This document shows, in pieces, positions 772 to 29,385 of a stretch of DNA of 44,805 bases (positions within the stretch are counted from its first letter, which is position 1; the number at the start of each line of letters is the position of its first letter). A program made the translations under genes and the position numbers. Location of the stretch: positions 1 through 44,805 of IMG/VR virus record IMGVR_UViG_3300044726_000051. One strand, 5' to 3'. This DNA is from a virus. Below the pieces are notes generated by a model that was given only the letters and a program-made list of their open reading frames with translations, did not search any database and was not told the origin of the DNA.

Positions 772-1756
772 TAGTGCTCCTGCTCCCCCAGCGCCTGACT
801 ACACGGCGCTAGCGGAGAAGACAGCCGCGTCTCAAGCTGAGGCGGCGGCTAAGCAAACCCAGGCGAATCGTCCGAATCAGGTAGACATCTATGGCAATAC
901 GTCTACCTGGACCCAGGACCCGGCCAGCGGGACCTGGACTCAAAAGCAGGCCCTGTCCCCTGAGCAGCAACAGCAACTAGACGCCCAGGAGGCTTTACGG
1001 AGCAGGGCTACAAGCAACGCTACCGACGCGCTGGGTCAACCCCTGAATACTGAAGGGTTGCGGGACTACAGCGACTACGATACAAGCGCCCTTCAAGGCG
1101 TGGATGCCGAGAAACTGCGCAGCAGCGCCGGTCTATTCAGTCTGGACCCGGTAGGCAACTCTCAGGCTATTCAGGATGCCACCTACGGACTCCTCAGGCC
1201 CCAGCGAGAGCAGGCTACCAACTCTGAGCTTCAACGCCTCGCTAGCCAGGGCCTCACCGAGGACTCCCCAGCTTGGCAGGCGGCTATGCTCCGTCAGGGG
1301 CAGGCGGATACCGACGCTCAGCTCAAGTCCCTCCTGGCCGGTCAGCAGGAGTATGGTAAGTCTTTCGAGCGGGCCAGCGGTCAGAACAAGCAGAACTTCG
1401 AGCAGATGACCGAGGCCGAGAAGTTTGCCCAGGGTCTGAGAGGTCAGCAGTTCAATGAGCAAACCCAACAAATCGGTATGGATGCAGCTACTCGGGAGCA
1501 GCAACTAAACGAACGGATGACGCTCCGTAACCAGCCTATGAGCGAGCTTCAGCAGATTCTGGCTATGCAACAATATAGCAATCCCTCCTTCGGCAATTTC
1601 GCTAGCGCCACCGGGGAGCAAGGCACGGATTACCTCGGGGCGGCTCAGTCGGGGTATGACGCAGCTATAGGGAACACCAACGCGAAGAACGCTAGCAAGG
1701 CGGGGACGACCTCGGGCATCGTGGGTCTAGCTATGGCGGGGGCGACGGCATACTAA
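758..1756 (+). CDS. Probable internal virion/ejection protein, 332 aa
   Basis: The protein opens MGWLSSAPAPPAPDYTALA, followed by a long alanine- and glutamine-rich helical region (about residues 17-250) with heptad-like patterning, and ends in a glycine/alanine-rich segment (SGIVGLAMAGATAY) that could insert into a membrane. A Pro/Ala start, QANRPNQVD..GN stretch and Gln-rich coiled body are typical of podoviral proteins packed in the head or tail and injected with the DNA. It precedes two larger proteins of similar composition and overlaps the next gene at TAATGG. The assignment is by composition and context. Confidence 0.7.
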   Translation: MGWLSSAPAPPAPDYTALAEKTAASQAEAAAKQTQANRPNQVDIYGNTSTWTQDPASGTWTQKQALSPEQQQQLDAQEALRSRATSNATDALGQPLNTEGLRDYSDYDTSALQGVDAEKLRSSAGLFSLDPVGNSQAIQDATYGLLRPQREQATNSELQRLASQGLTEDSPAWQAAMLRQGQADTDAQLKSLLAGQQEYGKSFERASGQNKQNFEQMTEAEKFAQGLRGQQFNEQTQQIGMDAATREQQLNERMTLRNQPMSELQQILAMQQYSNPSFGNFASATGEQGTDYLGAAQSGYDAAIGNTNAKNASKAGTTSGIVGLAMAGATAY

Positions 1757-2427
1757 TGGAAGTCCTACAATTCTCCGGCGGCTTGGATTCCCTCGCCTGT
1801 CTTGAGCTTCTCAAGGACAAGCCGGGGTTGATCGTGCTTACCGCCTCCACCGATGGGGCCTACCCGGAGCGCGACGAGTACCTCAAGATGGTAGCGTCAT
1901 ACTACCCCGGCCTGATCTTCAAGGAGTGCTACGCGGATCGGCACCTGGAGCGGTTCGGTCAGCCTGTCGATGTGGTTCCCATCAAGTTCACGACTATCGG
2001 CCATATCGTTCAACTGTCCCCCGTTAAGTACCAGCCCCATTTCGAGTGCTGTAACCGTAGCCTATGGCTCCCTATGATGCAGGCGACAGCGGCGCTGGGG
2101 GCTACCGTAGTCTACAAGGGTCAGAGGTCGGAGGATTCCTTCAAGGCTCCGATACAGGACGGTCACTTTGAGGACGGTATCCTGTACCGTATGCCTATAC
2201 AAGATTGGTCTAGGGAGCGGGTGCGCGACTTCGTCAAGGCCCGGTGCCCCGAGCTTATCCCCCCATACTACGAGAAGGAAAAGACATCGCGGGATTGCTG
2301 GGATTGTACCGCCTATCTACACGAGAACCTAGACCGTATCCGCAACCTCCCCCGGGATCGGTACCTCCACGTAGCGGACATCCTAGATGAGTGGCGGCGG
2401 GACATTAACGACGAAACAAGGTGGTAA
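1756..2427 (+). CDS. PP-loop ATPase, PAPS-reductase-like
   Basis: An N-terminal PP-loop signature SGGLDSLA (residues 7-14) marks the adenine-nucleotide alpha-hydrolase fold of PAPS/APS reductases and of relatives that adenylate a substrate before sulfur or nitrogen transfer. Cysteine pairs ECCNR (near 97) and DCWDC (near 181-185) could bind metal or carry sulfur. The 223-residue length fits a stand-alone PAPS-reductase-like domain. It is unusual to find this enzyme between probable ejection-protein genes of the late operon, where it overlaps the upstream stop by one base. Possible roles are sulfur metabolism in the host, nucleic acid or protein modification, or counter-defence. The sequence does not decide among them. 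Confidence 0.75.
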   Translation: MEVLQFSGGLDSLACLELLKDKPGLIVLTASTDGAYPERDEYLKMVASYYPGLIFKECYADRHLERFGQPVDVVPIKFTTIGHIVQLSPVKYQPHFECCNRSLWLPMMQATAALGATVVYKGQRSEDSFKAPIQDGHFEDGILYRMPIQDWSRERVRDFVKARCPELIPPYYEKEKTSRDCWDCTAYLHENLDRIRNLPRDRYLHVADILDEWRRDINDETRW

Positions 2428-9512: not shown

Positions 9513-12500
9513 GTGGCCACTACCCTCTGGCTCATAGGGCAAGGCGGTGAACTGTTCCCTGAGCAGGGGGAGCAGGCTACCAACCTGCCCAAGGCTACCA
9601 ACAATGTTGCTTCCGGTAGCAGCGCTGAGGGTCGTCTTAGCCTGTTCCTTAATGGTAGTGCTAACAAAGAAGACAGGTCTGTCGACCTTACAGCCACTAC
9701 CGCGCTACAGTCCACGTTCTTTGGTAGGTTCACTAGTCGGGAACTAGCTGCCCAGACGATCCCCGCTCAGACGTGGACTGCTGCCTTCTTCATGGGGGAG
9801 GAAGCAAGCACCGCTAACCAGTACTTGTGGCCTGTTTTGTACGTCTGGAGGCCGGGGGTAGGTAGGGTTGGGTTCCTCTATGATCCTACGGCAGCAAGCG
9901 GCACGGAGCTTCCCACCACTCCCGCTATTGCGTCAAAGACGTTCTCGGGCACGTCACTTGTCGTACAGACTGGTGACGTTCTTGTTCTTGAGGTATGGTA
10001 CGCTGGCACATCAGGCGGCGCGGCGGGGCAGACTCAGACGTTGCGGGTTACATCTAACCCCGACACTAAGCTCACCTCGCCCTACACCATACAGTTCAAG
10101 CCTAACCCTAAGATAGAGACACTGAAGGAGGACTTTGAGGCACCCCTCGATACCTCTAAGTGGCTGACGGATACGGTAAATGGGTCTGTTGTCTTCTCCG
10201 GGGGTACAGGCAACTTCTCATATACAGCAGCGGTAAACGGCAACCACGCGGGCTTAGAATCCCAAGGTGAGTACGACTTCGCAGGCAGCTCGGCCTTCGT
10301 CAAGATAGCTGATGCCCCATGGTGGGGAGCCGGCAACCCCGCAGGCGGTGAGTTCTCGTTCAGTATTGAATCCGCGAACACCAACCGGATTGACTGGACG
10401 ATCTACTCGACTGGTAACCTCTCGCTCATCAAGTTCACCAATAACACTTGGGGACAGATTGCGGAGATAGAGGCCAACTTCCGCCCGGTCAAAGACAACT
10501 ATGCGTGGCTGCGGTTTCGGGAATCTGGTGGGACGATCTACTTTGAAGCGGCCCCCCTCACTGCTTCTAATCCACCCCTACCGGATGAGTGGGTTGTTAA
10601 ATTCTCGGGGACGGTTGGCTCGCTACCCATAACGCTTGCCTCCGCTAAGGTCACTTTCAGGGTTTGGATAAGCAATGCTACGGCTGGTATCGCTAACCCG
10701 ATGCCGAAGATTGACGCGCTAAACGGTCCCACCACTTCCGGCCCCACTAGCCTAGCTACCCTTACAGTTACCGAGGGGGCCGACACGGTAGCCTCTGATG
10801 TAGCGGTTACCACTCCCCCTCGTACCGCCACTCTTACCGTTACAGAAGCAGCGGATACCATATCTGGCGCAGCTAAGGTCGCCACTACCGCTAACCTCAC
10901 TCGCACCGAGTCGGCGGACACAATAGCTAGTATAGCCAAGGGCGGGTCCGAGGCTGCGGTTATTGTCGCTGAGGCCCCGGACACGATTGCGGCTACCGCT
11001 AGTGTGATCCCCTTCCCCCTGATTGAGACCTTCACGGAGAACTTTGAGGCCCCGCTAGACACTGCTAAGTGGAACCCAGTTACGGTCAACGGAACGATTG
11101 ACTTCGTGGGCGGGGTTGGGGTCCAAACCCTGACCTCGGCGGCGGTAGCCAACCAAGCGTCACTAATCTCAAAAGGATTCTACACCTTTCTCGGTAGCTC
11201 GCTGTTCTACAAGTTCGTCCAACCAATACGTACAGCAGGTAATGTCGTAGGGCTTGAGAATGGCTTCGGTGTTAGGACCCCCGACAACGGCCGCACTATC
11301 CAGTGGTGGTTAGAGGCTGACGGTGTCCTGAAGGCGGTAAAGCAGGACCAGTTCGTACAGACGGTGTTCGCTATAGTAGAGCCCAACTACTACGCGAATC
11401 CCCTCCCCTACACCTGGCTGCGTATCCGGGAGTCGGCTGGGACGGTTTACTTTGACTCGGCCCCGGATACCGCCTCCAACCCACCCATAGAGGCTGACTG
11501 GGTCAACAGGGCTTCCGCCGCCACCGCCACCATAAACGGGCCGTGGACGCAAGCTCAGGTCAACTCCTACATATACATGCAGGGGGCGGCGGCGGGGGTC
11601 CCGACCCAGCCGCTGAAGATCGACGGCATTAACACCGCCGCTAATGCCGCCGTTACTAGCCTAGGCAATCTGGCCGTCCAGGAGGCTGCGGACGCTATCT
11701 CGTCCACCGTTACGGTAGAGGCCCTGGCTACGTCTACGGCTGACCTGTCCGTCACGGAGGCCCCGGACACGGTAGCCTCTACCGTCACCGTAGCGGCGAT
11801 CCCACCGGCTACGGCTAACCTGACTCTGACGGAGGCCCCCAACACTATCTCGGCCACGGCGGGGTCCGTCGCAGGGGCGACCTTCACCAGGTCTGAGGCC
11901 CCTGATACGATTGTAGCCACGGCCTCGTCGGGGATAACGGCTAACCTGACCCGAACGGAGGCCCCAGACGCTATCTCGGCCACGGCCTCGTCCCCGTCCA
12001 CGGCTAACCTGGGAGTAGCAGAGGCCCCGAATACCCTCGCTGCGTCCGTATCGTCGCCCGCTACGGGGGCCCTCACAAGCACTGAAGCCCCAGATACCAT
12101 ATCGGCTACGGCCCTGGTACTCCCCTTCCCGGTTATCAACGCTAGCCTGACGGTACAGGAGGCCCCTGATCAGGTAGCCTCGGCGGCGGGGTCACCGGCT
12201 GCGATCGCGGACTTCTTCAGGACAGAGGCCCCCGATACTATAGTTGCGTCGGCCACCGCTACTATTGGGGCGACCCTTACCCGGACAGAAGCTCCCGATG
12301 GGCTGGCGGCCTCGGCGGCGGGGATCGCGGGGGCTACCCTAGCGCGAACCGAAGCAGCGGATTCTCTAGCCTCTTCCGCAACGGTCCCGGCGACCGGGAA
12401 CTTGAGCAAACAGGAGCTAGACGACAGCCTCTCATCTATAGTTAAGGTGGCGGGGCTAGCTAACCTATCTATACAAGAGGCGGGGGATACCCTAGCTAGC

Positions 12501-12683
12501 ACCGCCTCTGTACTTGAGGGGTCTACCGGGGGCCTAACGGTCACGGAAGCCCCCGACACCCTAGCCGCTACGGGGACGGTGGCGGACCCTATCTCGTTCG
12601 CCAACCTGTCGGTGACGGAGGCCCCCGATACCTCCTTCATGTATACGGTCCACGCTAAGAAACGGGCGATTCTCATCACATAG
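9513..12683 (+). CDS. Giant tail-appendage protein with duplicated domains and TEAPDT repeats, 1056 aa
   Basis: Translation probably starts at GTG, because the overlapping ATG two bases earlier is in another frame. After an N-terminal domain of about 200 residues come two similar blocks, residues about 201-403 and 504-709. Each opens with (KED/TEN)FEAPLDT.KW and runs as a beta sandwich of the concanavalin/LamG type. Each block is followed by short repeats with core (L/N)xxTEAPDTI(A/S): about four after the first and about fifteen after the second. The repeats likely form a rigid stalk and the duplicated domains glycan-binding heads. It closes the late operon just before a terminator. No enzyme motif is seen. 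Confidence 0.8.
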   Translation: MATTLWLIGQGGELFPEQGEQATNLPKATNNVASGSSAEGRLSLFLNGSANKEDRSVDLTATTALQSTFFGRFTSRELAAQTIPAQTWTAAFFMGEEASTANQYLWPVLYVWRPGVGRVGFLYDPTAASGTELPTTPAIASKTFSGTSLVVQTGDVLVLEVWYAGTSGGAAGQTQTLRVTSNPDTKLTSPYTIQFKPNPKIETLKEDFEAPLDTSKWLTDTVNGSVVFSGGTGNFSYTAAVNGNHAGLESQGEYDFAGSSAFVKIADAPWWGAGNPAGGEFSFSIESANTNRIDWTIYSTGNLSLIKFTNNTWGQIAEIEANFRPVKDNYAWLRFRESGGTIYFEAAPLTASNPPLPDEWVVKFSGTVGSLPITLASAKVTFRVWISNATAGIANPMPKIDALNGPTTSGPTSLATLTVTEGADTVASDVAVTTPPRTATLTVTEAADTISGAAKVATTANLTRTESADTIASIAKGGSEAAVIVAEAPDTIAATASVIPFPLIETFTENFEAPLDTAKWNPVTVNGTIDFVGGVGVQTLTSAAVANQASLISKGFYTFLGSSLFYKFVQPIRTAGNVVGLENGFGVRTPDNGRTIQWWLEADGVLKAVKQDQFVQTVFAIVEPNYYANPLPYTWLRIRESAGTVYFDSAPDTASNPPIEADWVNRASAATATINGPWTQAQVNSYIYMQGAAAGVPTQPLKIDGINTAANAAVTSLGNLAVQEAADAISSTVTVEALATSTADLSVTEAPDTVASTVTVAAIPPATANLTLTEAPNTISATAGSVAGATFTRSEAPDTIVATASSGITANLTRTEAPDAISATASSPSTANLGVAEAPNTLAASVSSPATGALTSTEAPDTISATALVLPFPVINASLTVQEAPDQVASAAGSPAAIADFFRTEAPDTIVASATATIGATLTRTEAPDGLAASAAGIAGATLARTEAADSLASSATVPATGNLSKQELDDSLSSIVKVAGLANLSIQEAGDTLASTASVLEGSTGGLTVTEAPDTLAATGTVADPISFANLSVTEAPDTSFMYTVHAKKRAILIT

Positions 12684-14724: not shown

Positions 14725-15015
14725 CTATTTTTGGTTAGTGTAGCCGGGGCCGGGTTCAGTTCCGTTGTCGTCCAGTTTGGATAGGACGCGGTTGATCCGG
14801 TCGTGCTGATCCTGACGCAGGTTCTCCGTAGCGAGCCACATACAGGTGTAGTCGAGTACCTTGATTAGGTCCTCCACGAGTTGGCCCTTATGCGGGGCCC
14901 GCTCGGCATACTTCGTGATATTGCCTTGGTACCAGTTGAGGTTCAAGCGGATCGCCCGCTCGTGATGCTGCTCCCCGGGAACAGTCTTGTAGTGCGCACC
15001 TTGTTCTTCAGCCAC
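14725..15015 (-). CDS. DUF3310-like protein, 96 aa
   Basis: I start at GTG overlapping the upstream stop, with AAGGAA in front. The sequence GAHYKTVPGEQHHERAIR, then WYQGNITKYAERAPHKG and EDLIKVLDYTCMWLA, follows the pattern of DUF3310 phage proteins (HYK...; GN.IKY..R...K; EDL.K...Y). The family's biochemical role is unsettled; members recur beside phage nucleotide-metabolism genes, as here beside an HD nucleotidase and a ThyA homologue. The C-terminal 20 residues are polar and end YTNQK. Confidence 0.7.
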   Translation of the reverse strand: MAEEQGAHYKTVPGEQHHERAIRLNLNWYQGNITKYAERAPHKGQLVEDLIKVLDYTCMWLATENLRQDQHDRINRVLSKLDDNGTEPGPGYTNQK

Positions 15016-15481
15016 GGTATTCCTTAAACAGTTTATCGGCCTCTTTGGTCGGGGGCCCCATCGCAACCAGGGCCTCCCTAGCGGTTTCGACCACGTACCG
15101 CATCAGATTGTTCCCCATATCGACTTCTCTCATCGAGTACAGGTAACACTCGAACATATCCGCCCAGGCCAGACACTTCAACTCGATAGGCGTCAGGCTT
15201 AGGGGGGTCCCATTGATCATAGCAAACTCCCGCTCGGCCTCTAGCGTGGTTTGCTTTAGCTTGGGATACTTCTTCTTGCCGGTATAGGGGATGTCCCCCG
15301 TTATCGACTCGGCCAGGTCGTGAGTCAGCGCGGCCTCGACCAGGTGGAGGTTCCCCGGCATGATCTCGCGGATGATTAGGGCTACCCCCCACGAGTGGGC
15401 GGCTAGGTCCTGATCCTTGAGTAGGTTCTGCGTATGGTACCGTCGCACGGCCCCCGCGTTGTATAGCGTTTTGAAGTTCAT
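15008..15481 (-). CDS. HD-domain 5'-deoxynucleotidase, YfbR-like
   Basis: The metal-binding HD signature is complete: R13-R14/H16 near the N-terminus, H29, H54-D55 (LTHDLAE), E58, D63 (TGDIP) and D108 (WADMFE). This matches the YfbR-type dNMP 5'-nucleotidases. The 157-residue length fits a single-domain enzyme. It would hydrolyse deoxynucleoside monophosphates. Next to a dUMP hydroxymethylase candidate it could remove dTMP so that the modified nucleotide enters DNA. A -10 TATACT ends eight bases before the ATG and no ribosome site is seen, so the transcript may be leaderless. Confidence 0.85.
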   Translation of the reverse strand: MNFKTLYNAGAVRRYHTQNLLKDQDLAAHSWGVALIIREIMPGNLHLVEAALTHDLAESITGDIPYTGKKKYPKLKQTTLEAEREFAMINGTPLSLTPIELKCLAWADMFECYLYSMREVDMGNNLMRYVVETAREALVAMGPPTKEADKLFKEYRG

Positions 15482-15488
15482 AATTCAG

Positions 15489-15505
15489 AGTATACCCGAT
15501 TTAGG
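15489..15505 (-). promoter_or_regulatory. Promoter of HD nucleotidase gene (TATACT)
   Basis: The - strand reads CCCTAAATCGGGTATACT, a variant of the recurring promoter word in this genome. Seven bases separate the -10 from the ATG, which places the start point at or next to the start codon. Confidence 0.6.
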
Positions 15506-15536
15506 GGAGGGAGGGGGCCGACTATAGGCCCCCGGG

Positions 15537-15598
15537 AACAAGACAGAATCGAGGCGGGCGGGCCCTCTAGCGGGGACCCGGTAGGGTACCCCACAAAA
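15537..15598 (-). repeat. Bracketed element, copy 1 (- orientation)
   Basis: The - strand carries TTTTGTGGGGTACCCTA, 33 unrelated bases with weak pairing, then TTCTGTCTTGTT. The same two words with nearly the same spacing occur on the + strand at 28522-28584. Both copies follow the end of an operon (here the ThyA homologue), so a shared role in transcript termination or processing is likely. Confidence 0.75.
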
Positions 15599-15613
15599 TT
15601 AGGATCGCGCCTC

Positions 15614-16585
15614 CTAGACCTTTGCCCTGCGCTCTAACCACTCCTTGCAAGCAAGGCGCCAATCGGTGGCGAGGCAGTCTTGTACGTACTGGAGGGCCCA
15701 CATAGAGTCCCCGCTCTTGTGAGCGTCCCAGGCCTTACGGAGGGGCATTACCACCCCGGCGAAGTAGGCAGTTCGTACATCGTAGGATTGGTCGGTGAAG
15801 TACCGGCAATCAGCATCGAAGTTGTGACGATCGTCTGGGTTCTCGAACAAGGCCACCGGGAGGACCCGGCGTTGAGAGTAGGGCTCGGTGTCCCGGTCGG
15901 AGATCACCCCCAGGTCGAATAGGGGCCAATGCTTCTCGTACACGTGGAGATTGTTAGTGAACTGGTAGTAGGTCCCCTGTAGGTATCCCGCCGCCCGAGC
16001 GATGTACTCGTGGAGGAAGGACATATGGACGGCGTTCGCCCCGCAGGCCCCCCACACCAGGTCGTTGCTTCGGTTACACACCGTCATATTGAGGAATGGA
16101 GCATTGATGTCGAAGTAGATGTGGGTATTACAAGGGAGGTCCTTGCCGGCCCGATCCAGGTCGCTGTGGGGGTCCCACATACCGATAACCGCACGGCGCG
16201 TATCCGGGTCCCGCCTGAGCATGGAGATAACCTGCTCGATCTGATCGACCCCGAAGTGGAGCCTCCACCGGTGGCCGTAGGCCCCGTGAAGGGTCACGCC
16301 GTCGTCGCTGTACTCCCGTATCTGCTTGGCGTACCGGGCCGGCAGGGCGACCTCGTTGCTCCCCGATAGCATCCAGATCGACTCGAACAGGTGGAAGAAC
16401 GGGTTGGCGTCCCTCGTCTCATCGAACAGGACCCGCTCGGCGGGGTTGGAGTACTCCAATATGGCGGGGAAAGGGAGCGCCATGACCCTCCCGTTCCTGG
16501 AGGGACCCTCGGCCCCCTCCATTTGTACTCGCCACATCGCCTCGGGGAACATCTGGTTGACGTTCCTTGCCTGAATATGCATCAT
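15614..16585 (-). CDS. Thymidylate-synthase homologue, probable dUMP hydroxymethylase
   Basis: Start is the first of two ATGs overlapping the upstream TGA, with AAGGAA in front. The ThyA core is complete: RRAVI (130-134) for phosphate, catalytic Cys152 in DLPCNTHIYF, NRSNDLVWG (171-179) and LHVY (213-216). Asn184 aligns with the thymidylate-synthase Asn that selects uracil, whereas dCMP hydroxymethylases have Asp there. It could be a plain thymidylate synthase, but WGACGANAV and the hypermodification genes beside it favour making 5-hydroxymethyl-dUMP from dUMP and methylene-tetrahydrofolate. This is the entry step of the proposed pathway. Confidence 0.83.
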   Translation of the reverse strand: MMHIQARNVNQMFPEAMWRVQMEGAEGPSRNGRVMALPFPAILEYSNPAERVLFDETRDANPFFHLFESIWMLSGSNEVALPARYAKQIREYSDDGVTLHGAYGHRWRLHFGVDQIEQVISMLRRDPDTRRAVIGMWDPHSDLDRAGKDLPCNTHIYFDINAPFLNMTVCNRSNDLVWGACGANAVHMSFLHEYIARAAGYLQGTYYQFTNNLHVYEKHWPLFDLGVISDRDTEPYSQRRVLPVALFENPDDRHNFDADCRYFTDQSYDVRTAYFAGVVMPLRKAWDAHKSGDSMWALQYVQDCLATDWRLACKEWLERRAKV

Positions 16586-17412
16586 GATGGTTCCTTGTAT
16601 TGGGCTTTCGCCCTGCCTTTGTAATACTTGATCCGAACATACTTGCTGAACTCGCACAGACAGTTCTGAGTGTCGTGGGCGGTCAGGTCGTACCCGGTGT
16701 TATGACTGATCAATACCCTTATTTCGTTGACCTCCTTAGAGAATTGAGTAGCGTTAATGGATTGGCCCGGAGGTCTACCGTGGAGGTAGTTCAGCCCCCG
16801 GCTAGAGCCGGGCCCCGGTGAGCAGAAGGTCCACCAGTCGTCGGCGTATTCAAGCAGAGGGGTGTACTTGAGGTCGGCTATGACCTGGGCGGCTAGGAAG
16901 CTCCCCAGGCCCCGGGAGCACTGGATGATCCGGCAGGCGTCCTCTAGCTTCATGCTCTTTCGGATCGTCCTACAGTGGTGGAAGGCGTCGTCAAGGACCC
17001 GGGCGATGATCTCCTGCTTGGTCTCCCCGCCCTTGGAGAACCCCCCGGTGACCATATAGGCCCCGGTCCATATCTTGAACCCGTTCTCCGACAAGGCGTC
17101 CATCTGTTGAACGAACCTGTCGTGGGACCAGACCTCGGGGAAGCCCAGGGACCCCAGGGTAAGGGGCCAATTGACGGTACGGGCGACACACATAGAGAAG
17201 GCCAGGTTCTCGTGGTGTCGGTAGGGGTCCCGCCAATTGTCCTTGATCCACCGAGTGACCTTGTCGTCCTCCCGGCGGATGTTACAGAAGCGGGTCGTTC
17301 GGATTATCTGGTCCGTAGTCCACGGCGGGGGTCGGCGTTCCTCCTCCCGCTTAATCCGCACGCTTTCCCGCTCCCGTATCCAGTGATACAGGTCGGCTTC
17401 GTGGGGAGTCAT
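16582..17412 (-). CDS. aGPT-pyrophosphorylase-like thymine hypermodification protein, 276 aa
   Basis: The protein matches my recollection of the alpha-glutamyl/putrescinyl thymine pyrophosphorylase family. It has an N-terminal WIRERESVRIKREE helix, RTTRFCNIRREDDKVTRWI, a middle NLAFSMCVARTVNWPLTLG, GAYMVTGGFSKGGETK, then CSRGLGSFLAAQVIADLKY and CSPGPGSSRGLNYLHG. In characterised phages such helical proteins act on pyrophosphorylated 5-hydroxymethyl-dU in DNA, replacing pyrophosphate by an amine or amino acid. I start at MTPHEADLYHW with AAGGAC upstream; the ATG overlaps the stop of a small membrane peptide. Three nearby genes fit the same pathway. The acceptor amine is unknown. Confidence 0.75.
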   Translation of the reverse strand: MTPHEADLYHWIRERESVRIKREEERRPPPWTTDQIIRTTRFCNIRREDDKVTRWIKDNWRDPYRHHENLAFSMCVARTVNWPLTLGSLGFPEVWSHDRFVQQMDALSENGFKIWTGAYMVTGGFSKGGETKQEIIARVLDDAFHHCRTIRKSMKLEDACRIIQCSRGLGSFLAAQVIADLKYTPLLEYADDWWTFCSPGPGSSRGLNYLHGRPPGQSINATQFSKEVNEIRVLISHNTGYDLTAHDTQNCLCEFSKYVRIKYYKGRAKAQYKEPS

Positions 17413-17522
17413 TTGAGGTCCTTCTTCATCCCCTTGACGAAGAGCCAAGCCACCGTGACGATAGTGACGCAGGGGATACCCACCACGATGAGGAGGGCGA
17501 CCATCAGTTCATTGTTGCTCAT
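17409..17522 (-). CDS. Small membrane peptide, 37 aa
   Basis: The frame MSNNELMVALLIVVGIPCVT continues IVTVAWLFVKGMKKDLK. It has one hydrophobic helix (about residues 7-28) and a basic end, so an inner-membrane peptide with the C-terminus in the cytoplasm is likely. Both ends are coupled: ATG overlaps the upstream TGA and its TGA overlaps the next ATG. Its place inside the modification operon is unexplained; it may be a holin-like or regulatory microprotein that hitch-hikes on the transcript. Confidence 0.65.
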   Translation of the reverse strand: MSNNELMVALLIVVGIPCVTIVTVAWLFVKGMKKDLK

Positions 17523-17743
17523 AGCTCGTATTCCCATTTGAGGGCGTCCTCAAGAGAGGTCGCGGTTACAATTCCTTCCTTGGGGAAGGGCTTGATCCAG
17601 AAGGTGAGGTTGTTCTTCTTGCGCCAGCCTTTCGACCAGCCAGACTTAACCAACTCCTCTTCCATGATGCGGTCTAGCTCCAGCTGGGCCCCCCGGATAC
17701 GGTTGTACCCTGCCCCGGACATAGGGGTGGAGCCGATAGTCAT
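17519..17743 (-). CDS. Hypothetical protein in modification operon, 74 aa
   Basis: I choose the ATG overlapping the kinase stop (MTIGSTPMSGAGYNRIRG). The longer in-frame form would be embedded in the kinase gene. The protein is soluble with a charged helix (QLELDRIMEEELVKSGWSKG) and a C-terminal beta/helix part (LTFWIKPFPKEGIVTATSLE). The four-base overlaps on both sides imply coupled translation with the kinase. No family is recognised; a small partner of the kinase or transferase is possible. Confidence 0.65.
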   Translation of the reverse strand: MTIGSTPMSGAGYNRIRGAQLELDRIMEEELVKSGWSKGWRKKNNLTFWIKPFPKEGIVTATSLEDALKWEYEL

Positions 17744-18312
17744 CGGGGCTCCAAAAGCTGTAGGAGCTGGGCTAGGGGCAGCTTCTCGTAGTTGAGGATA
17801 GCTACCTTGTGCTCCTTCTCCAGGAGCAGCCTGTCGCGGAGTCGATTGATCGTGGTCCATTTGTTTCTCGTCAGTTGTGGGTTGAACTTGTTCTTGCTCT
17901 CGTTGGTAGCGCGGCGCTCCACTACCCGGTCCAGGCAGACGTTGATCGGGGTATCCAGGAAGGCATAGATGTAGTCGCCCCCGTACTTCTTGGAGTGCTC
18001 CCCCATCGCCCCGTAGTAGGTGCTCTGGAGAAGGCCCTCGTGTACCACGTGGCCCTCCTTGGCGTAGCGGTCAATCATCTCCATGACCTCTTGGGCGGTG
18101 CCGACCGTATCGACACCCCCGCAAGCGTTCTCGTAGCTCCCCAGGAGGAAGACAGGGTTGTCTAGCTCCAGCAGGTCGAGGCGGTAGCCCACGGTCTTGC
18201 GCTTGTTGTTGATCTCGTGTAGAGGATCGATGGTCGCGGCGGCTTCGATCAGGGAGCGGGCAAAGGTGGTTTTACCCGCCCCCGAGCAGCCATGTATCTT
18301 CAAAATGGTCAT
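17740..18312 (-). CDS. P-loop kinase, probable 5-hydroxymethyl-dU DNA kinase
   Basis: A Walker A loop GCSGAGKTT occupies residues 8-16. Further on are YRLDLLELDN, a VVHEGLLQSTYYGAMGEH region resembling an acceptor site, YAFLDTPINVCLDRV and an RR..N basic lid (RRATNESKN). The 190-residue size and layout agree with the small 5-hmdU DNA kinases that phosphorylate hydroxymethyluracil in DNA to prime amine transfer. A nucleoside monophosphate kinase acting on hydroxymethyl-dUMP is the main alternative. Its position directly between a SNF2 helicase and the aGPT-type protein supports the DNA kinase reading. It overlaps the helicase stop by one base. Confidence 0.72.
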   Translation of the reverse strand: MTILKIHGCSGAGKTTFARSLIEAAATIDPLHEINNKRKTVGYRLDLLELDNPVFLLGSYENACGGVDTVGTAQEVMEMIDRYAKEGHVVHEGLLQSTYYGAMGEHSKKYGGDYIYAFLDTPINVCLDRVVERRATNESKNKFNPQLTRNKWTTINRLRDRLLLEKEHKVAILNYEKLPLAQLLQLLEPR

Positions 18313-19676
18313 TAAGCCCTCCTGGCTTTAAGTGCGTCGTTAAATCTCGTCTGGGTACGATCCTTGTACTCCAGGGCTTTCATTACATCTTCGTCCTTGG
18401 TGTCCTTAGTACCAATGTGGTGGACCATTACAATGGGCGCGATCTGACCTTGACGCCAGACGCGGGCGATAAGCTGCTGGTAGTGCTCTAGGTTCCACGT
18501 GATGCCGAACCAGCAGACGGTAGAGCAAGCCTCCTGGAGGTTCAGGCCGTGGCCCGCGCTAGCCGGGTGGGCCAGGAGTACCGGGATTTGGCCGTTGTTG
18601 AATCGGTCGATGGTGATCTGGGGGTTCTTGACCTTACCCAGGTCGATGGCCTCGGGGAGCCTCTTGAGTATCCGGTCGGCGTCGGCCTGGAACTCGTAGG
18701 CGACCAGGAGGGGTCGGCCCTGCATTTCCTCGATCAACTCCTCTAGGGCGTCAATCTTCTCGTCGTGGAGGTCTATCGTCCTGCGATCTGTCTCGATGTC
18801 GGTATAGATAAACCCGTTAGCCATCTGGCGGAGCTTAACACCGACTGCGGCCGCGTTAAACACCGCGACCGACTCGTTGTCGTTCATCTTGGTGACGAAG
18901 TTGTCTTCCAACTCTTTGTATTGCTTCCTGAGGTGAGGCGGAAGCTCGACCCCGATGAAGTTGTTGACTAGTTCGGGCATATCTAGATGATCGCGGGCGT
19001 CCATACGCAGGAGCTTATCGGCTACCCGCTTATAGATGATGTCCTCGGCCCCCCGGTTAAGGTGGTACTCGTAGAGGTTCCCCGGGACCTGATGCATGAA
19101 CTCGTTACGGAAGTGGGTAATGTACTTCCCTAGCGACTCCCCGAAGTCCACGACGAACATCTGCCCAAAGAGGTCGGCTACCCCGTTAGGCACAGGCGTA
19201 CCCGTTAGGATCATACGGCGCTTAAAGCCGAACAGGACCTTCTTGAGCGCCTTAAAGCGCTGAGTCGTAGTGTCCTTGAACTTCGTACTCTCGTCCAATA
19301 CGAGCAGGTCAAAGTCCCGGGTGAGGAGAGGAAGGATTTTGACCAGGCTTTCCGGGTTGATGAGGTAGACATCGTTGGGGGCGGCTATCAGCCTCTTGCG
19401 CTCGGCCTCGGGCTGGTTACAGAGATTGGCGATCTTCAGATGGTTGAAGTCGTTCCACTTCTTGCCCTCGTTGGGCCAGACGGTGTGGCAAACCCGGAGG
19501 GGGGCGACCACAAGTGTCTTCCTGATCTCTTTCTCGGCCACGAGGATAGAGATACAGGCGAGGGTGATAGAGGTCTTTCCCAGGCCGGGGTCGAGCATAA
19601 GCCCGCAGCCCGCCCGCGCTAGGGCGAACCCAATAGCCTTTTCCTGGTAGTCTTTCGGCATCCAATCACGCGACAT
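18312..19676 (-). CDS. SNF2-type DNA helicase/translocase, 454 aa
   Basis: All main superfamily 2 motifs are visible: I DPGLGKTS (29-36), Ia VVAPLRV, II LDES (127-130), III LTGTP (157-161), V ASAGHGLNLQ (372-381) and VI QLIARVWRQGQ (401-411). The DES form and QxxARxxRxGQ are typical of phage SNF2-like enzymes. It would translocate on duplex DNA using ATP. Elsewhere it would be read as a replication or recombination helicase. Here it lies between the transferase-like gene and the DNA kinase, overlapping both, so it may help modifying enzymes reach bases in duplex DNA. That is inference. Confidence 0.9.
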   Translation of the reverse strand: MSRDWMPKDYQEKAIGFALARAGCGLMLDPGLGKTSITLACISILVAEKEIRKTLVVAPLRVCHTVWPNEGKKWNDFNHLKIANLCNQPEAERKRLIAAPNDVYLINPESLVKILPLLTRDFDLLVLDESTKFKDTTTQRFKALKKVLFGFKRRMILTGTPVPNGVADLFGQMFVVDFGESLGKYITHFRNEFMHQVPGNLYEYHLNRGAEDIIYKRVADKLLRMDARDHLDMPELVNNFIGVELPPHLRKQYKELEDNFVTKMNDNESVAVFNAAAVGVKLRQMANGFIYTDIETDRRTIDLHDEKIDALEELIEEMQGRPLLVAYEFQADADRILKRLPEAIDLGKVKNPQITIDRFNNGQIPVLLAHPASAGHGLNLQEACSTVCWFGITWNLEHYQQLIARVWRQGQIAPIVMVHHIGTKDTKDEDVMKALEYKDRTQTRFNDALKARRA

Positions 19677-20487
19677 GGCGATACTCCCCGCGAACGTACA
19701 GGCCTTGAGGTATCCGGGCAGGTATATGCTCGGTGATGTTTTGGGGCAGGTCCCCCAGGAGGTTCCAAGCGTCGGCTATGTCCTCCCCGATCCAGTGGGC
19801 CTTGGTCTTCAGGTAGCCCTTGAGGGTACAGATGACCGTTTCGACCTCGCCCAGGCCGCACTTCTCCCCGACCTTGACCGGGTGGTCGAACTGAGATACG
19901 TGGTCGAGGACGATCCTGATGGTATCCCGGAGGTCGTTGTAGGGGAAGAAGTCCGCAGCCGCCTGCTTAGGCACGTCAGGCATATACTTGATCGCGTCCT
20001 CGATAGACATCGTGACCGGCCAATCGAGGCAGATGTCGTACCAATCCATCAGCTTCCAGATATAGTAGGGGCCCAATTGGCAGCCCTCGTAGCGGTTGCG
20101 GATATGCTTTACCATAGCCGGGTAGTGCTCCTTGTGCATATCGGCTACGATCTGCGCGGGGGTCAGACCCTTACCGGACATCAGTTCGATGGCCTTGGAG
20201 GCTACCGCGCCCCGGAAGTGCCTACGGGCCCCCCGGCGCTTAACCAAGTCTGCGGCCCCGTCAACGCGGCACTTATCCCAGAAGGTCCTCTCGGTGGTGC
20301 TACCGGCGACGTTGTAAGCGTCCCGGAGGTTATAGAACCACATGTAGTGGAGGATGAATCGACCGTTCCACTCGCTGTCGTGGAGGTCAAATAGAGCGCG
20401 CAGGACAGGATAGGTCGGGTCCAGGTCCTTGGTCTCTATCATGATGCGAGAGAAGTCTCTCCAGTTGTCAACTACTATCGGGTTCAC
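19666..20487 (-). CDS. Probable amino acid:DNA transferase (ADDT-like), 273 aa
   Basis: The all-helical protein has an N-terminal block DPTYPVLRALFDLHDSEWNG with HYMWFYNLRDAYNVAG, a basic RRGARRHFRG segment, and GPYYIWKLMDWYDICLDWPV followed by EDAIKYMPDVPKQAA. This order resembles the amino acid:DNA transferase domain found with thymine hypermodification kinases. Such enzymes are proposed to attach an amino acid or amine to the activated methyl group in DNA. Family naming between ADDT and aGPT-pyrophosphorylase is not settled in my memory. Start is GTG within the nuclease gene (20-base overlap). The SNF2 gene begins before it ends. Confidence 0.6.
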   Translation of the reverse strand: MNPIVVDNWRDFSRIMIETKDLDPTYPVLRALFDLHDSEWNGRFILHYMWFYNLRDAYNVAGSTTERTFWDKCRVDGAADLVKRRGARRHFRGAVASKAIELMSGKGLTPAQIVADMHKEHYPAMVKHIRNRYEGCQLGPYYIWKLMDWYDICLDWPVTMSIEDAIKYMPDVPKQAAADFFPYNDLRDTIRIVLDHVSQFDHPVKVGEKCGLGEVETVICTLKGYLKTKAHWIGEDIADAWNLLGDLPQNITEHIPARIPQGLYVRGEYRHVA

Positions 20488-20749
20488 CTACGAATCTCCT
20501 AATGGCCTTTCGACCGTCGATTAAATTGTCTACCCAGATCACCTCAAATCCTTGCTTCCTAATCAGGTCAATAACGTAGACCTGTAGGGGCCCAGGTCGC
20601 TCCCCGGGCCGCTTGAACTCGATGAAGAGGATTCGGCCCTTCCACAAGAACATGTAGTCGGGCCAGCCCTCCCCAAAACTCAGCTTTCTGGCTATTACGC
20701 CCCGGTGGCGCGCGAACTCCACCACTTTGCGCTGAATCTGGCTTTCCAA
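20468..20749 (-). CDS. VRR-NUC domain nuclease, 93 aa
   Basis: The active-site pattern of the VRR-NUC branch of PD-(D/E)XK nucleases is clear: E2..Q6 helix, GWPD with D31, IEFK (43-46) and a following PGPLQ with Gln56. The minimal stand-alone size is typical for phages, where it cleaves branched or junction DNA during replication and packaging. The only start is TTG, five bases downstream of a TATAAT box, so the message would be leaderless from this promoter. Initiation at this codon needs confirmation. Confidence 0.85.
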   Translation of the reverse strand: MESQIQRKVVEFARHRGVIARKLSFGEGWPDYMFLWKGRILFIEFKRPGERPGPLQVYVIDLIRKQGFEVIWVDNLIDGRKAIRRFVGEPDSS

Positions 20750-20784: not shown

Positions 20785-21453
20785 CTATTTGGAAGCGGCG
20801 GATTCGCAGGGGCCTCCGTTGAACTTAGAGTAAGTACAGCGTTTGCAGTGGTCTCCAGGAGTTGGATCAAGTCTTGTATCGCGTTCCATTCGGACAATGT
20901 CCCCGTCCCACCGCTTACGGCTGTGCTCCAGCATTTCACGTAGCATGGAATCGGTTGCGCCGGTATTGCCGCTATCAATGTAGATAGCGCCTGTCTCAAC
21001 ACGTCTTGCGTCGGGGTAGATGATAAGTCCGAGGACACCGTAAAGATTAAGTTGATCGTAATGGGAAGGATATTGTCGTCCAGATTTGTAGTCATAGCAA
21101 TAGAGCACTTTCTCTTGTACGTAGTGAACGTCAACGATGGCTTTGACGCGGGCCTTGCTTTGGTCGGTCGTAGGCTCCCAGTTCTCGTCCACCAACCAGG
21201 TCGCCTCGGGGGAGGCCCCCAGGGTACGGAAGTGGTGGAGCTTCAGCCCTATCTTCTTTACATCATAGGGGACCGGGCTGACCTTGTTAGGGTCCCCCAT
21301 ATAGTCCTCGCATAGCTTGTGTAGCCGGGTCCCCCTCATCATGGGCGCGCTCGGGGGCGACGGCAGCTTGAGTACATAGCTGTAGTAGTATTCCCGGGGG
21401 CACTCCTTGTAGGTGGAGATAGAGGAGTAAGAGTGTCTAGTAGGCCGGTTCAT
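20785..21453 (-). CDS. Cas4/RecB-like PD-(D/E)XK exonuclease, 222 aa
   Basis: The motif order is that of RecB-family nucleases: YSSISTYKECPREYYY with Cys18, GTRLH (41-45), D108 in VDVH and DYKSG (121-125). The C-terminus has C203, C206 and C216. One N-terminal plus three C-terminal cysteines is the ligand set of the 4Fe-4S cluster in Cas4 and AddB nucleases. It probably degrades DNA ends, for host DNA breakdown or recombination. It overlaps the DNA polymerase stop by one base and is co-expressed with it. Confidence 0.85.
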   Translation of the reverse strand: MNRPTRHSYSSISTYKECPREYYYSYVLKLPSPPSAPMMRGTRLHKLCEDYMGDPNKVSPVPYDVKKIGLKLHHFRTLGASPEATWLVDENWEPTTDQSKARVKAIVDVHYVQEKVLYCYDYKSGRQYPSHYDQLNLYGVLGLIIYPDARRVETGAIYIDSGNTGATDSMLREMLEHSRKRWDGDIVRMERDTRLDPTPGDHCKRCTYSKFNGGPCESAASK

Positions 21454-23342
21454 TATTTACCTCTCATATGTAGTGGTCCGTCCCTAGAACTTGAACTAAA
21501 TTCTTCCATTTGTCTTCCCATCCCTCGGCTATCCCTCCCAGCCTGGTTTACTTCTATGTACTTCTCCAGGTTATGCCAATCCTCGCCAAACTTCACTTCC
21601 GAGCGGAACGGTACATCCCATCCCGGCTGATCTTCCATCGCGGCGCGGAGGATCGTCACCTCAGTCTTGAGGTGCTCCCGGGGAACCGTGATCACTAGCT
21701 CGTCGTGGACGGTCATCAGGAGGTTCCCGTGGTGCTTGTACTCGTCGTACCGCACGATGGCTTCCTTGGTTTGATCCGCCGCGCTACCTTGAATGAGATA
21801 GTTACATAGCTTGTAGTTAAACGTCCACCAGGACCCCTTGAACAGCTTCGGCTCTTCCACCGGGAGCACACGCCCGCCCCAGGTCTTGACCTGGGTACGC
21901 GTGTCGAACTGATCAACGAACGCTTGGAGACCGGGGATCGCCTTGAAGTAGGCTTTCTTGATTTGAGCTGCCGTGTTATAGTCTACCCCCAGTTGTTGAG
22001 CCAGCTTCGTAACGCCCGACCCATAGAGTAGAGAGAAGCCCACAATCTTACACATCTTCCGGGGGACCTGTAGCCCGGTATATTGTAGGATAAGGGCTGA
22101 GGCAACGGCGTGGAAGTCTGCGGTGGGGTCGGTTTGGTAAATCTCCATGGCCCGCCCCTCGGCATAGTGAGCCATGATACGCATTTCCTGCCCGTTGTAG
22201 TCAGCAGGCACAATGATCTCCCCTTCATCGGGGAGGATGTACTGCCGCATAAACGGTATGTCGAGCCCCTCAAGTACGCTATCGTCAAATTCCGTCGGCA
22301 CGTTCTGGAAATTGGGTTCACTACAGCTAAACCGGCCGGTGCGCGCGCCGCCCTTATCCGAGCGTACTTGGTTCCATGAGGGGTGAACATTCCCATCCCT
22401 TTCGCTAAAGTTGATCCAGTTCTTGTAGAAGTTGCTAGTCAGGGTATGGAGGGTCCCCCGGTAGCGGAGGGCCTTGAGTAGGCCCGGCTCGGTCACCGCC
22501 TCCTCCAAGGCGTCCTTGGCTGTGGATAGCAGCCCCGTAGGGGTTTTCCTGAGGGGCTTAGCGTAGGGGCTAGCCTCCAGGGCGGCGGCGATCTGCCGGG
22601 GCTTTGAACAATCTACGTCCCCCAGATAGCCTTGGATAACCTCCTCTTGGGCCGTCTGTATCTTCTGGTACTTGTCGAAGTCCCGCTCCAGGGCCTCCCG
22701 GTTCACCTTGACCCCCACGAACTCCATGTGGTAGGCTATCTTGGCTATCTTGAGCTCCCGCTCGTAGGCGGGCATCTGCCCCGATACCTCCAGTTGGGGC
22801 ATAAGTAGCTCGGACAGGCCGTTGGTACGGAATGTGTCCCCCTCTGCGTAGGGGGCAACTATTTCGTAGGGGGCGTAACCAATGTAGCCCCCGAAGTTGG
22901 TCTCAGTGATCTCCTTCTCACCGTTGACGAACGGCCCCTTAAAGTGGGACTTAAGCCAGCGGTAGACGGCCTGCTGCTCGTCGGGGGGTAGCCCCAGGAG
23001 GCGTTCGGCTGACGGCTTAAGGGACAACTTGTCGGCTAGGGGATGCATCAGATACAACATGAACATCGTATCATCGTAGCGATCCGGCCAGGGTAGCCCC
23101 ATATGCTCTACCGCCACCCCTACGTCGAACTTGCAGTTATGGAATAACGGCTTGTGGTCCCAGACGGCAGACAGGGCCTTACGGCCCTGTTCATAAGTAT
23201 GGGGGTTATGACCGGGATGGCCCCAGCCATAGTAGATGTTCCTCTGCCCCGGTAGGTATATAGATACACCTACCGGGGCCGGGGCTAGCCCAGAGCCGAA
23301 AATGATCGGCTTGGTCTCAAAGTCAACGACCGGCTGCGCCAT
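21453..23342 (-). CDS. Family A DNA polymerase with 3'-5' exonuclease
   Basis: The 629-residue protein carries exonuclease motifs DFETK (7-11), FHNCKFDV (68-74) and YAEGDT (165-170). The polymerase part has the TGR..S.PNFQN.P block (335-349), motif A with Asp381 (PADYNGQEMR), motif B RKMCKIVGFSLLYG (428-441) and motif C VHDE (545-548). All catalytic residues are present. There is no 5' nuclease domain, as in T7-like enzymes. It is the replicative polymerase. It must copy from and incorporate modified thymidine if the proposed pathway works at dNTP level. The N-terminus overlaps the upstream gene by 20 bases. Confidence 0.95.
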   Translation of the reverse strand: MAQPVVDFETKPIIFGSGLAPAPVGVSIYLPGQRNIYYGWGHPGHNPHTYEQGRKALSAVWDHKPLFHNCKFDVGVAVEHMGLPWPDRYDDTMFMLYLMHPLADKLSLKPSAERLLGLPPDEQQAVYRWLKSHFKGPFVNGEKEITETNFGGYIGYAPYEIVAPYAEGDTFRTNGLSELLMPQLEVSGQMPAYERELKIAKIAYHMEFVGVKVNREALERDFDKYQKIQTAQEEVIQGYLGDVDCSKPRQIAAALEASPYAKPLRKTPTGLLSTAKDALEEAVTEPGLLKALRYRGTLHTLTSNFYKNWINFSERDGNVHPSWNQVRSDKGGARTGRFSCSEPNFQNVPTEFDDSVLEGLDIPFMRQYILPDEGEIIVPADYNGQEMRIMAHYAEGRAMEIYQTDPTADFHAVASALILQYTGLQVPRKMCKIVGFSLLYGSGVTKLAQQLGVDYNTAAQIKKAYFKAIPGLQAFVDQFDTRTQVKTWGGRVLPVEEPKLFKGSWWTFNYKLCNYLIQGSAADQTKEAIVRYDEYKHHGNLLMTVHDELVITVPREHLKTEVTILRAAMEDQPGWDVPFRSEVKFGEDWHNLEKYIEVNQAGRDSRGMGRQMEEFSSSSRDGPLHMRGK

Positions 23343-28584: not shown

Positions 28585-28768
28585 ACTGGCGGCGTAGGAG
28601 GGGGGAGGGGTCTGGCCCCCGGGGGGCTATCAACAGAGCCACTCGCCCGTCACGAGTGTGACCGCTCATCACGCAATAGGGGACCCCGATGTCCACGGTC
28701 ATTTGGTCTTGGAGGAGGGCCAAGTGGGCCTTGGCGGCGTCCTCGCGGTTGGGGAATATGATCTTCAT
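28583..28768 (-). CDS. Hypothetical protein, 61 aa
   Basis: I choose the ATG that overlaps the stop of the methyltransferase-like gene (MKIIFPNREDAAKAHLALLQ). A TTG four codons earlier is possible. The small alpha/beta pattern (VDIGVPYCVMSGHTRDGRVA) has no known motif. It is the last gene of its operon before the strong terminator. The coupling suggests a partner or minor product of that operon. Confidence 0.65.
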   Translation of the reverse strand: MKIIFPNREDAAKAHLALLQDQMTVDIGVPYCVMSGHTRDGRVALLIAPRGPDPSPLLRRQ

Positions 28769-29385
28769 TCGCTTATCCAAAGGCCAGGGGAGGATTGGTG
28801 AACTAGGCCGGCCAGCCCTAGCTCGACCATGTAAGGATTGACCACCCAGGGGGCTAGGTGGACTTGTGTGAAGCCTAGCTCGCGCATGAGATCGTTCTTG
28901 GGAGAGTTGTACTCAAAGGCCGTGTTGAACGCGGGGGTACCATCGAACGCATCGAGGACCACTACGGGCCCCACGGTGTATTCTAGGGCGTCTTCCAGCA
29001 CCTCCCGAGCCTCCATGTGGCCGAGCGCGTAGGCGATCAGGGTAACGTCCGGGGCACACTCGGGGTCATAGCCCTCGGCTGGGCCGAGAATCCGCCGCCC
29101 CGGGCAGACGCATAGGGCCAGCTGGGCCTTGGACGCGTTGAGAAGGTCAAACTTGAGGTCGGGCCGGTAGTGGTGCCAATGGTACTCCATACCGCCCACG
29201 CCGCAGCCGAGCGATAGGACGTCAGCGAGCATGGGGAGTTGGAGCGCCTTGAGGACCAAGCGGGAGTGCTCGGCCTCGTCGGTGTCGAGGAGCCAGAGTT
29301 GGAAGACCTTGCGGCCTGCCTCTAGGAGGGCCTTGGTGACTTGGCCCACTTGGGCCTCGTCGGAGTAGAGTGAGTGGAGGGTCAT
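28765..29385 (-). CDS. Class I SAM methyltransferase-like protein, 206 aa
   Basis: The core pattern of a Rossmann methyltransferase is visible: motif I VLSLGCGVGGMEYHW (about 56-70), an acidic/aromatic strand KFDLLNASKAQL, VTLIAYALGHMEAREVLEDA and VVVLDAFDGT. The N-terminal helix may cap the active site. No DPPY or NPPY signature of an amino-methyltransferase is present, so it is more likely a small-molecule, protein or tailoring methyltransferase than a restriction-type one. It could decorate the hypermodified base, but nothing in the sequence proves it. It is coupled to small membrane peptides upstream. Confidence 0.6.
   Translation of the reverse strand: MTLHSLYSDEAQVGQVTKALLEAGRKVFQLWLLDTDEAEHSRLVLKALQLPMLADVLSLGCGVGGMEYHWHHYRPDLKFDLLNASKAQLALCVCPGRRILGPAEGYDPECAPDVTLIAYALGHMEAREVLEDALEYTVGPVVVLDAFDGTPAFNTAFEYNSPKNDLMRELGFTQVHLAPWVVNPYMVELGLAGLVHQSSPGLWISE

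Follow-up and report, generated by a model that had tools for sequence, protein, structure and literature searches.

Some phages exchange part of their DNA thymine for a base linked to an amino acid, which protects against host restriction. The DNA of Delftia phage phiW-14 contains alpha-putrescinylthymine, and phage SP10 carries a glutamyl adduct that is left untrimmed. Such adducts reportedly derive from free amino acids, and Lee et al. are said to have found, in 2021/22, many permutations of the genes in metagenomes. Thus, a modification cassette lacking tailoring enzymes would not be unprecedented. The modified bases of M6, ViI and phiW-14, as well as the kinase step acting on 5-hydroxymethyldeoxyuridine (5-hmdU), have been described (PMC6449724). 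Hypermodification of thymidine was also proposed for pelagiphage podoviruses; the accessible part of that report lists a thymidylate synthase (TS) and aG/PT-PPlase1, in some phages with a 5'-deoxynucleotidase and a glucosyltransferase, and that part does not mention an ADDT-type transferase (PMC9599517). The 2015 description of Rhodoferax phage P26218 lists ThyA, ATPase and hydrolase genes, and the cassette was not recognised there (PMC4657236). Here we analyse the metagenome-derived phage record IMGVR_UViG_3300044726_000051 (IMG/VR), whose entire length of 44,805 bases is referred to as the window. It quite probably holds a cassette for thymidine hypermodification that resembles those of M6 and PaMx11 but has no known tailoring step, each catalytic step being assigned by homology.

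In all likelihood the phage produces 5-hmdU, phosphorylates this base once it is in DNA and then couples an amino acid or amine to it, with no known trimming step to follow. In the proposed pathway, a ThyA homologue would convert deoxyuridine monophosphate (dUMP) to 5-hydroxymethyl-dUMP, host or phage kinases would raise the product to the triphosphate, and the DNA polymerase PolA would incorporate 5-hmdU, with an HD deoxynucleotidase clearing the competing deoxythymidine monophosphate (dTMP). A P-loop kinase would phosphorylate some of the 5-hmdU to 5-phosphomethyl-dU, the base being presented by a DNA-binding protein of family PF18723. An ADDT-type transferase would then let the amine of an amino acid displace the phosphate (glycine for PaMx11 gp46; here glycine or another). 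The adduct would stay as installed, no known decarboxylase, radical S-adenosylmethionine (SAM) isomerase, flavin lyase or acetyltransferase being at hand, and would protect the DNA against restriction enzymes whose sites contain T. Because the known finishing enzymes are absent and the transferase lies on a separate branch, the probable end product is an amino-acid adduct left bare, or else a new base.

Gene content of the cassette

The five genes listed in a first-pass annotation of the window (ThyA, kinase, PF18723, ADDT-like and HD) were all found and, as it had stated, all lie on one strand, the minus strand. In order of transcription, polA is followed by genes for a Cas4-like exonuclease, a VRR-NUC nuclease, the ADDT-like transferase, an SNF2 helicase, the P-loop kinase, a 74-residue open reading frame (ORF), a 37-residue peptide, the PF18723 protein, the ThyA homologue and the HD protein. 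From VRR-NUC to ThyA every gene overlaps the next (overlaps of 20 bp, 11 bp, 1 bp and ATGA type). The overlaps claimed earlier are real, but the chain also runs through the SNF2 gene and the two small ORFs, which had been left unlisted. A gap of 132 bp separates the ThyA homologue gene from the HD gene, and a TATACT box sits in it, upstream of the HD gene. The proposal that this gene has its own promoter was not borne out: a consensus scan lists none there, and the region has 4 sites versus 4.2 in shuffled sequences. The cassette is intact in close relatives of the window phage (loci L008-L011). Since homologues share their order in M6, PaMx11 and Pam3 as well as in dozens of IMG/VR contigs, the association of these genes is far beyond chance.

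The ThyA homologue (15614-16585, minus strand, 323 residues) is of the M6/YuA type. It matches PF00303 (E 1e-22) and phrog_5131 (1.8e-108), and its closest relatives are M6-type phage enzymes such as the TS of MP1412 (47% identity). The catalytic cysteine C152 and the uracil-type asparagine N184, the latter already noticed in the first-pass annotation, are invariant with M6, PaMx11, P26218 and Pam3. Homology begins at the ATG at 16585; the GTG start at 16657 given in the ORF list is too long. Its relationship to the M6-type enzymes, together with its setting in the cassette, points to a probable dUMP hydroxymethylase. The HD protein (15008-15481, minus strand, 157 residues) is, as predicted, a YfbR-like 5'-deoxynucleotidase, with PF12917 above cut-off (3e-12) and BLAST matches to P26218 gp17 (1e-19) and M6 gp59 (6e-12).

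The P-loop kinase (17740-18312, minus strand, 190 residues) had been assigned to the 5-hmdU DNA kinase type. It falls marginally short of the Pfam PF18748 cut-off (26.9 versus 27 bits), and the assignment is upheld by matches to M6 gp54 (1.5e-22) and PaMx11 gp49 (3.3e-23). The PF18723 helical protein ('aGPT-PPlase1', HMUDK_hel; 16582-17412, minus strand, 276 residues) scores 138.5 bits (3.8e-40), where the cut-off is 25, and matches M6 gp55 (1.7e-40). Its earlier placement in the aGPT-pyrophosphorylase family was thus correct, but the 'pyrophosphorylase' label is doubtful, because Pfam now names PF18723 the helical domain of 5-hmdU DNA kinase. Searching PDB sequences with the kinase and the PF18723 protein gave no match. 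The AlphaFold2 model of the latter is confident (pLDDT 93.5), and the PDB structures it resembles most are those of an 8-oxoguanine DNA glycosylase (OGG, 3fhf, probability 0.99) and PaMx11 gp46 (8z2n, probability 0.97), although both matches are weak (E 0.02-0.05, TM 0.40-0.52). The protein is probably the base-flipping partner of the kinase; the fold match fits this role but is no proof of it. We also considered sequence homology between the transferase and the PF18723 protein and rejected it, the profile comparison being not significant (probability ≤3.4%); they share only a weak glycosylase-like fold. PF18723 had no match anywhere in P26218, Manatee Spring phage ctfPj964 or contigs L036, L047 and L053, and is therefore not required in every such cassette.

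The glycosylase-like fold could be taken to mean that these genes serve nucleotide metabolism and DNA repair, as an ordinary thymidylate synthase, a deoxynucleoside monophosphate kinase and glycosylase-like proteins, and automatic annotation does name their homologues thymidylate synthase, kinase or terminase small subunit. We consider this highly improbable: the kinase and the PF18723 protein match known hypermodification cassettes (M6, Pam3), the nearest relatives of the TS are the M6-type phage enzymes, and the transferase is homologous to a glycinyltransferase of solved structure acting on 5-phosphomethyl-2'-deoxyuridine (5-PmdU). Profile searches with the five proteins placed neither the kinase nor the helical proteins in unrelated families; the matches were to M6 gp54, PF18723 and PaMx11 gp46.

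The absence of a known tailoring enzyme, also noted in the first-pass annotation, was confirmed over the whole record. The tailoring proteins of M6, PaMx11, Pam3 and RHph_TM26, and also Pam3 'Nmad5', had no match in any window ORF at E 0.01, and profiles agreed. No homologue of the pyridoxal phosphate (PLP), flavin-lyase or acetyltransferase enzymes was found across the 44.8-kb record. Radical_SAM (PF04055) was likewise absent from the whole record, in a search that does detect it in M6 and Pam3.

The transferase and its clade

The ADDT-like helical protein (19666-20487, minus strand, 273 residues, GTG start) is a divergent homologue of PaMx11 gp46 and is predicted to be an amino-acid:DNA transferase. 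Its sole PDB relative is 8z2m/8z2n (3.6e-6), and the title of 8z2n names PaMx11 gp46/PUGT a 5-PmdU glycinyltransferase; a search of the available literature for glycinyltransferase papers found none. By BLAST, the transferase matches P26218 gp14 (2e-23) and phiW-14 gp109 (1.3e-16). A profile of its clade aligned with the PaMx11/M6 clade over 238 columns (1.8e-40) and with the P26218 clade at 2.2e-37, in agreement with the ADDT-like assignment made earlier.

A profile search recovered 80 viral loci, which were mapped with family models, and a transferase tree of 87 rows was built. The PaMx11/M6 side comprises 39 rows, including PaMx11, M6, Pam3 and RHph_TM26, and 33 of them have one or more homologues of PLP, radical-SAM, flavin adenine dinucleotide (FAD) or acetyltransferase enzymes at a distance of no more than 10 kb. 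The window side comprises 48 rows, namely the window group with phiW-14 and SH-Ab 15599 (23) and the P26218 group (25), and none of the 48 adjoins such a homologue. These figures are counts and not a test, as the rows are related and some contigs are fragments. Twelve positions (D23, P24, Y26, Y52, R84, R88, G139, K145, D148, E214, E216 and C220) are invariant in 72 sequences, the window transferase included. This invariant core suggests that catalysis is kept. Other positions differ: gp46 residues W48, W146, F149 and K248, fixed on the side associated with tailoring, correspond to M49, Y141, W144 and T221 in the window transferase, which may thus use a substrate different from that of the PaMx11-side enzymes.

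Several observations weigh against the proposed pathway and its bare adduct. The transferase is below the cut-off of Pfam ADDT (PF18724; 17.1 versus 26.2 bits), so that its homology to ADDT rests on profiles and on intermediates; the relative in L017 and P26218 gp14 are above it, with 29.5 and 164.6 bits. W146 and K248 of PaMx11 are found in 35 of 35 sequences on the PaMx11 side and in 0 of 37 on the window side, and with otherwise fixed positions differing between the two sides glycine should not be assumed as the substrate. Ribonucleotide reductase, deoxycytidine monophosphate deaminase and a kinase for hydroxymethyl-dUMP were not recognised in the phage, and precursor supply would consequently rest on the host. 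Finally, a tailoring enzyme could come from the host or from an unknown family, and the window encodes a small SAM-methyltransferase-like protein at 28765-29385 (minus strand).

The divergence of the transferase might also mean that the pathway is partial, with DNA containing 5-hmdU (or phosphomethyl-dU) only and the transferase branch degenerate or otherwise employed. Besides missing the Pfam cut-off, the transferase has diverged further than any other gene of the cassette, with 32-36% identity in relatives whose capsid protein is 76-91% identical. However, all invariant core residues are kept, and no close relative has a disrupted frame. The gene is also retained in every sister phage seen, a biased observation as all were found through the transferase. 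Overall, a partial pathway appears improbable.

Sister phages and candidate methyltransferases

Sister phages sharing the capsid protein with the window phage (76-97% identity) bear on what may happen to the adduct. Most cassettes with a 32-36% identical transferase (L017-L022, L024-L029, L031) carry one of two related genes, MT1 or MT2, and never both. MT1 lies between the SNF2 and kinase genes (L017:12806-13390, L018:12790-13383, L024:3858-4583, L026:6932-7603), and MT2 between the PF18723 and ThyA genes (L021:8387-9103, L028:14275-14994, L029:5934-6647, L031:6364-7077). No Pfam or PHROG family covers them, and the structure model of MT2 shows the fold of SAM-dependent methyltransferases, with 705 PDB matches at E ≤0.001. 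In L081/L084, distant homologues are flanked by PLP and radical-SAM genes, and a further one, Pam3 gp39, is encoded near the Pam3 cassette. MT1 and MT2 are candidates for a new tailoring enzyme of an undescribed SAM-methyltransferase-fold family. Both are absent from the window, L008-L011 and L032.

We tentatively suggest, as a possibility somewhat short of even, that the transferase clade of the window attaches some amino acid or amine that is not glycine and is left bare as an undescribed thymidine derivative, while the sister phages would finish the same adduct with the SAM-dependent methyltransferase MT1 or MT2. Alternatively, the core pathway works and the adduct is then modified by an unrecognised tailoring enzyme, for example by the 28765-29385 protein acting in trans, giving a tailored and new base. 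The distribution is complementary in this respect: same-capsid sister phages have MT1 or MT2 within the cassette and the window group does not, and the window phage and its three nearest relatives (L008-L010), the only loci in which the 28765-29385 gene was found, carry this different methyltransferase-like gene instead. The protein is nevertheless not detectably homologous to MT1/MT2, which led us to reject it as a relocated copy of either, and 5 kb separate its gene from the polA end of the cassette. It also matches part of phrog_424, a PAPS-reductase family, and may belong to another function. The product of 1756-2427 (plus strand), a PAPS-reductase-like protein also found in L008-L010, L017 and L020, matches a different part of phrog_424; the two matches cover residues 9-78 (28765-29385) and 164-359 (1756-2427), and the genes are far apart. 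We regard such further tailoring of the adduct as unlikely, though less so than a partial pathway.

The reading of an untrimmed adduct sets the common steps of the pathway (5-hmdU, kinase, transferase) apart from optional finishing enzymes and points to a transferase clade that may use a different substrate. If the adduct is bare in the DNA, trimming would not be needed for protection, and the base could be a new natural one. The SAM-methyltransferase-fold genes of the sister cassettes hint at further tailoring chemistry.

Most sister cassettes also have a gene of 135-140 codons before the kinase gene (L017:12399-12803 and relatives) that is not present in the window; the L017 product weakly matches pyrimidine-dimer glycosylases (PF03013, 0.0076; phrog_624, 1.4e-9).

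Neighbouring genes and virion module

The VRR-NUC nuclease gene (20468-20749, minus strand) heads the chain of overlaps and matches phrog_93 (2e-19), its PF08774 match (0.0013) being below cut-off. It is preceded by the genes of the Cas4-like PD-(D/E)XK exonuclease (20785-21453, minus strand; PF12705, 7e-16) and of the family A DNA polymerase (polA, 21453-23342, minus strand; PF00476, 1e-56), which is expected to incorporate 5-hmdU triphosphate. The SNF2-family helicase (18312-19676, minus strand; PF00176, 9e-21) is a replication protein and not a modification enzyme, and has the same neighbourhood in P26218 and its relatives. The 74-residue ORF (17519-17743, minus strand) has no Pfam or PHROG match and is kept in close relatives (L007-L011, L017, L020); it was ruled out as a substitute for a tailoring enzyme, as it co-occurs with MT1 in L017 and L020. 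The 37-residue putative membrane peptide (17409-17522, minus strand), read from the sequence, has ATGA overlaps on both sides, and a similar peptide is encoded upstream of the PF18723 gene in L017. Adjoining the HD gene, the product of 14725-15066 (minus strand) has PHROG matches labelled 'nucleotide kinase', yet no P-loop was seen; it weakly resembles P26218 gp18 (0.007) and has a DUF3310-like appearance.

The record has a GC content of 59%, and no tRNA genes were found in it. Phage records searched at the nucleotide level with the 14-24 kb region gave no match. The large terminase, portal and capsid protein are all encoded, and the nearest named relatives of the last two are from Stenotrophomonas phage BUCT555, Myxococcus phages Mx8/Mx9 and Bradyrhizobium phage ppBjS10J-1. 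Mx8 is short-tailed, and this kinship makes a short tail likely for the window phage. Between the window group and L017-L029, the virion module (capsid 76-97% identical) has changed far less than the replication/modification module, where identity is about 33-58% in the same phages. A protein of 1056 residues (9513-12683, plus strand) contains many TEAPDTI(S/A)A-like repeat units and is probably a tail or surface protein.

Comparison with known systems

PaMx11 (gp46-gp52), of the long-tailed family Mesyanzhinovviridae, has the transferase, kinase, PF18723, ThyA and HD genes in the same order near polA as the window. However, it also has gp47 (FAD) and gp48 (acetyltransferase), both missing from the window, whereas the window has an SNF2 helicase gene between the transferase and kinase genes and a transferase of another clade. 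In the M6/YuA group, whose base is 5-(2-aminoethyl)-2'-deoxyuridine (5-NedU; PMC6449724), core genes homologous to those of the window lie beside polA (M6 gp51-59), but M6 also carries two tailoring genes, PLP (gp52) and radical-SAM-like (gp53), neither of which occurs in the window. Pam3 (gp47-53) and RHph_TM26 have this core near polA too, with little change in gene order. The added tailoring genes are PLP and radical-SAM in M6 and Pam3, and FAD and acetyltransferase-like in PaMx11 and RHph_TM26.

In phiW-14, the ADDT homologue gp109 groups with the window clade and not with M6/PaMx11, and a PF18723 protein is present; unlike in the window, the modification genes are scattered over a genome of 157 kb. 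The compact podovirus-like setting proposed for the window is already known and is not new here. HTVC023P-type pelagiphage podoviruses of clades V, VIII and IX have TS and aG/PT-PPlase1 genes beside polA, as in the window (PMC9599517). The other case is P26218, cultured and short-tailed, whose cassette went unrecognised in its description (PMC4657236).

P26218 and Manatee Spring ctfPj964 both have SNF2, transferase, kinase, ThyA and HD genes grouped without a tailoring gene. In P26218, transferase, kinase, ThyA and HD form a minimal cassette (L002:9773-12780, gp14-gp17); the kinase there bears the annotation 'terminase small subunit', which phrog_800 also extends to M6-type kinases. The P26218 capsid protein is unrelated to that of the window, but its transferase is on the window side of the tree, and this smaller cassette in a cultured phage makes the proposed pathway testable at once.

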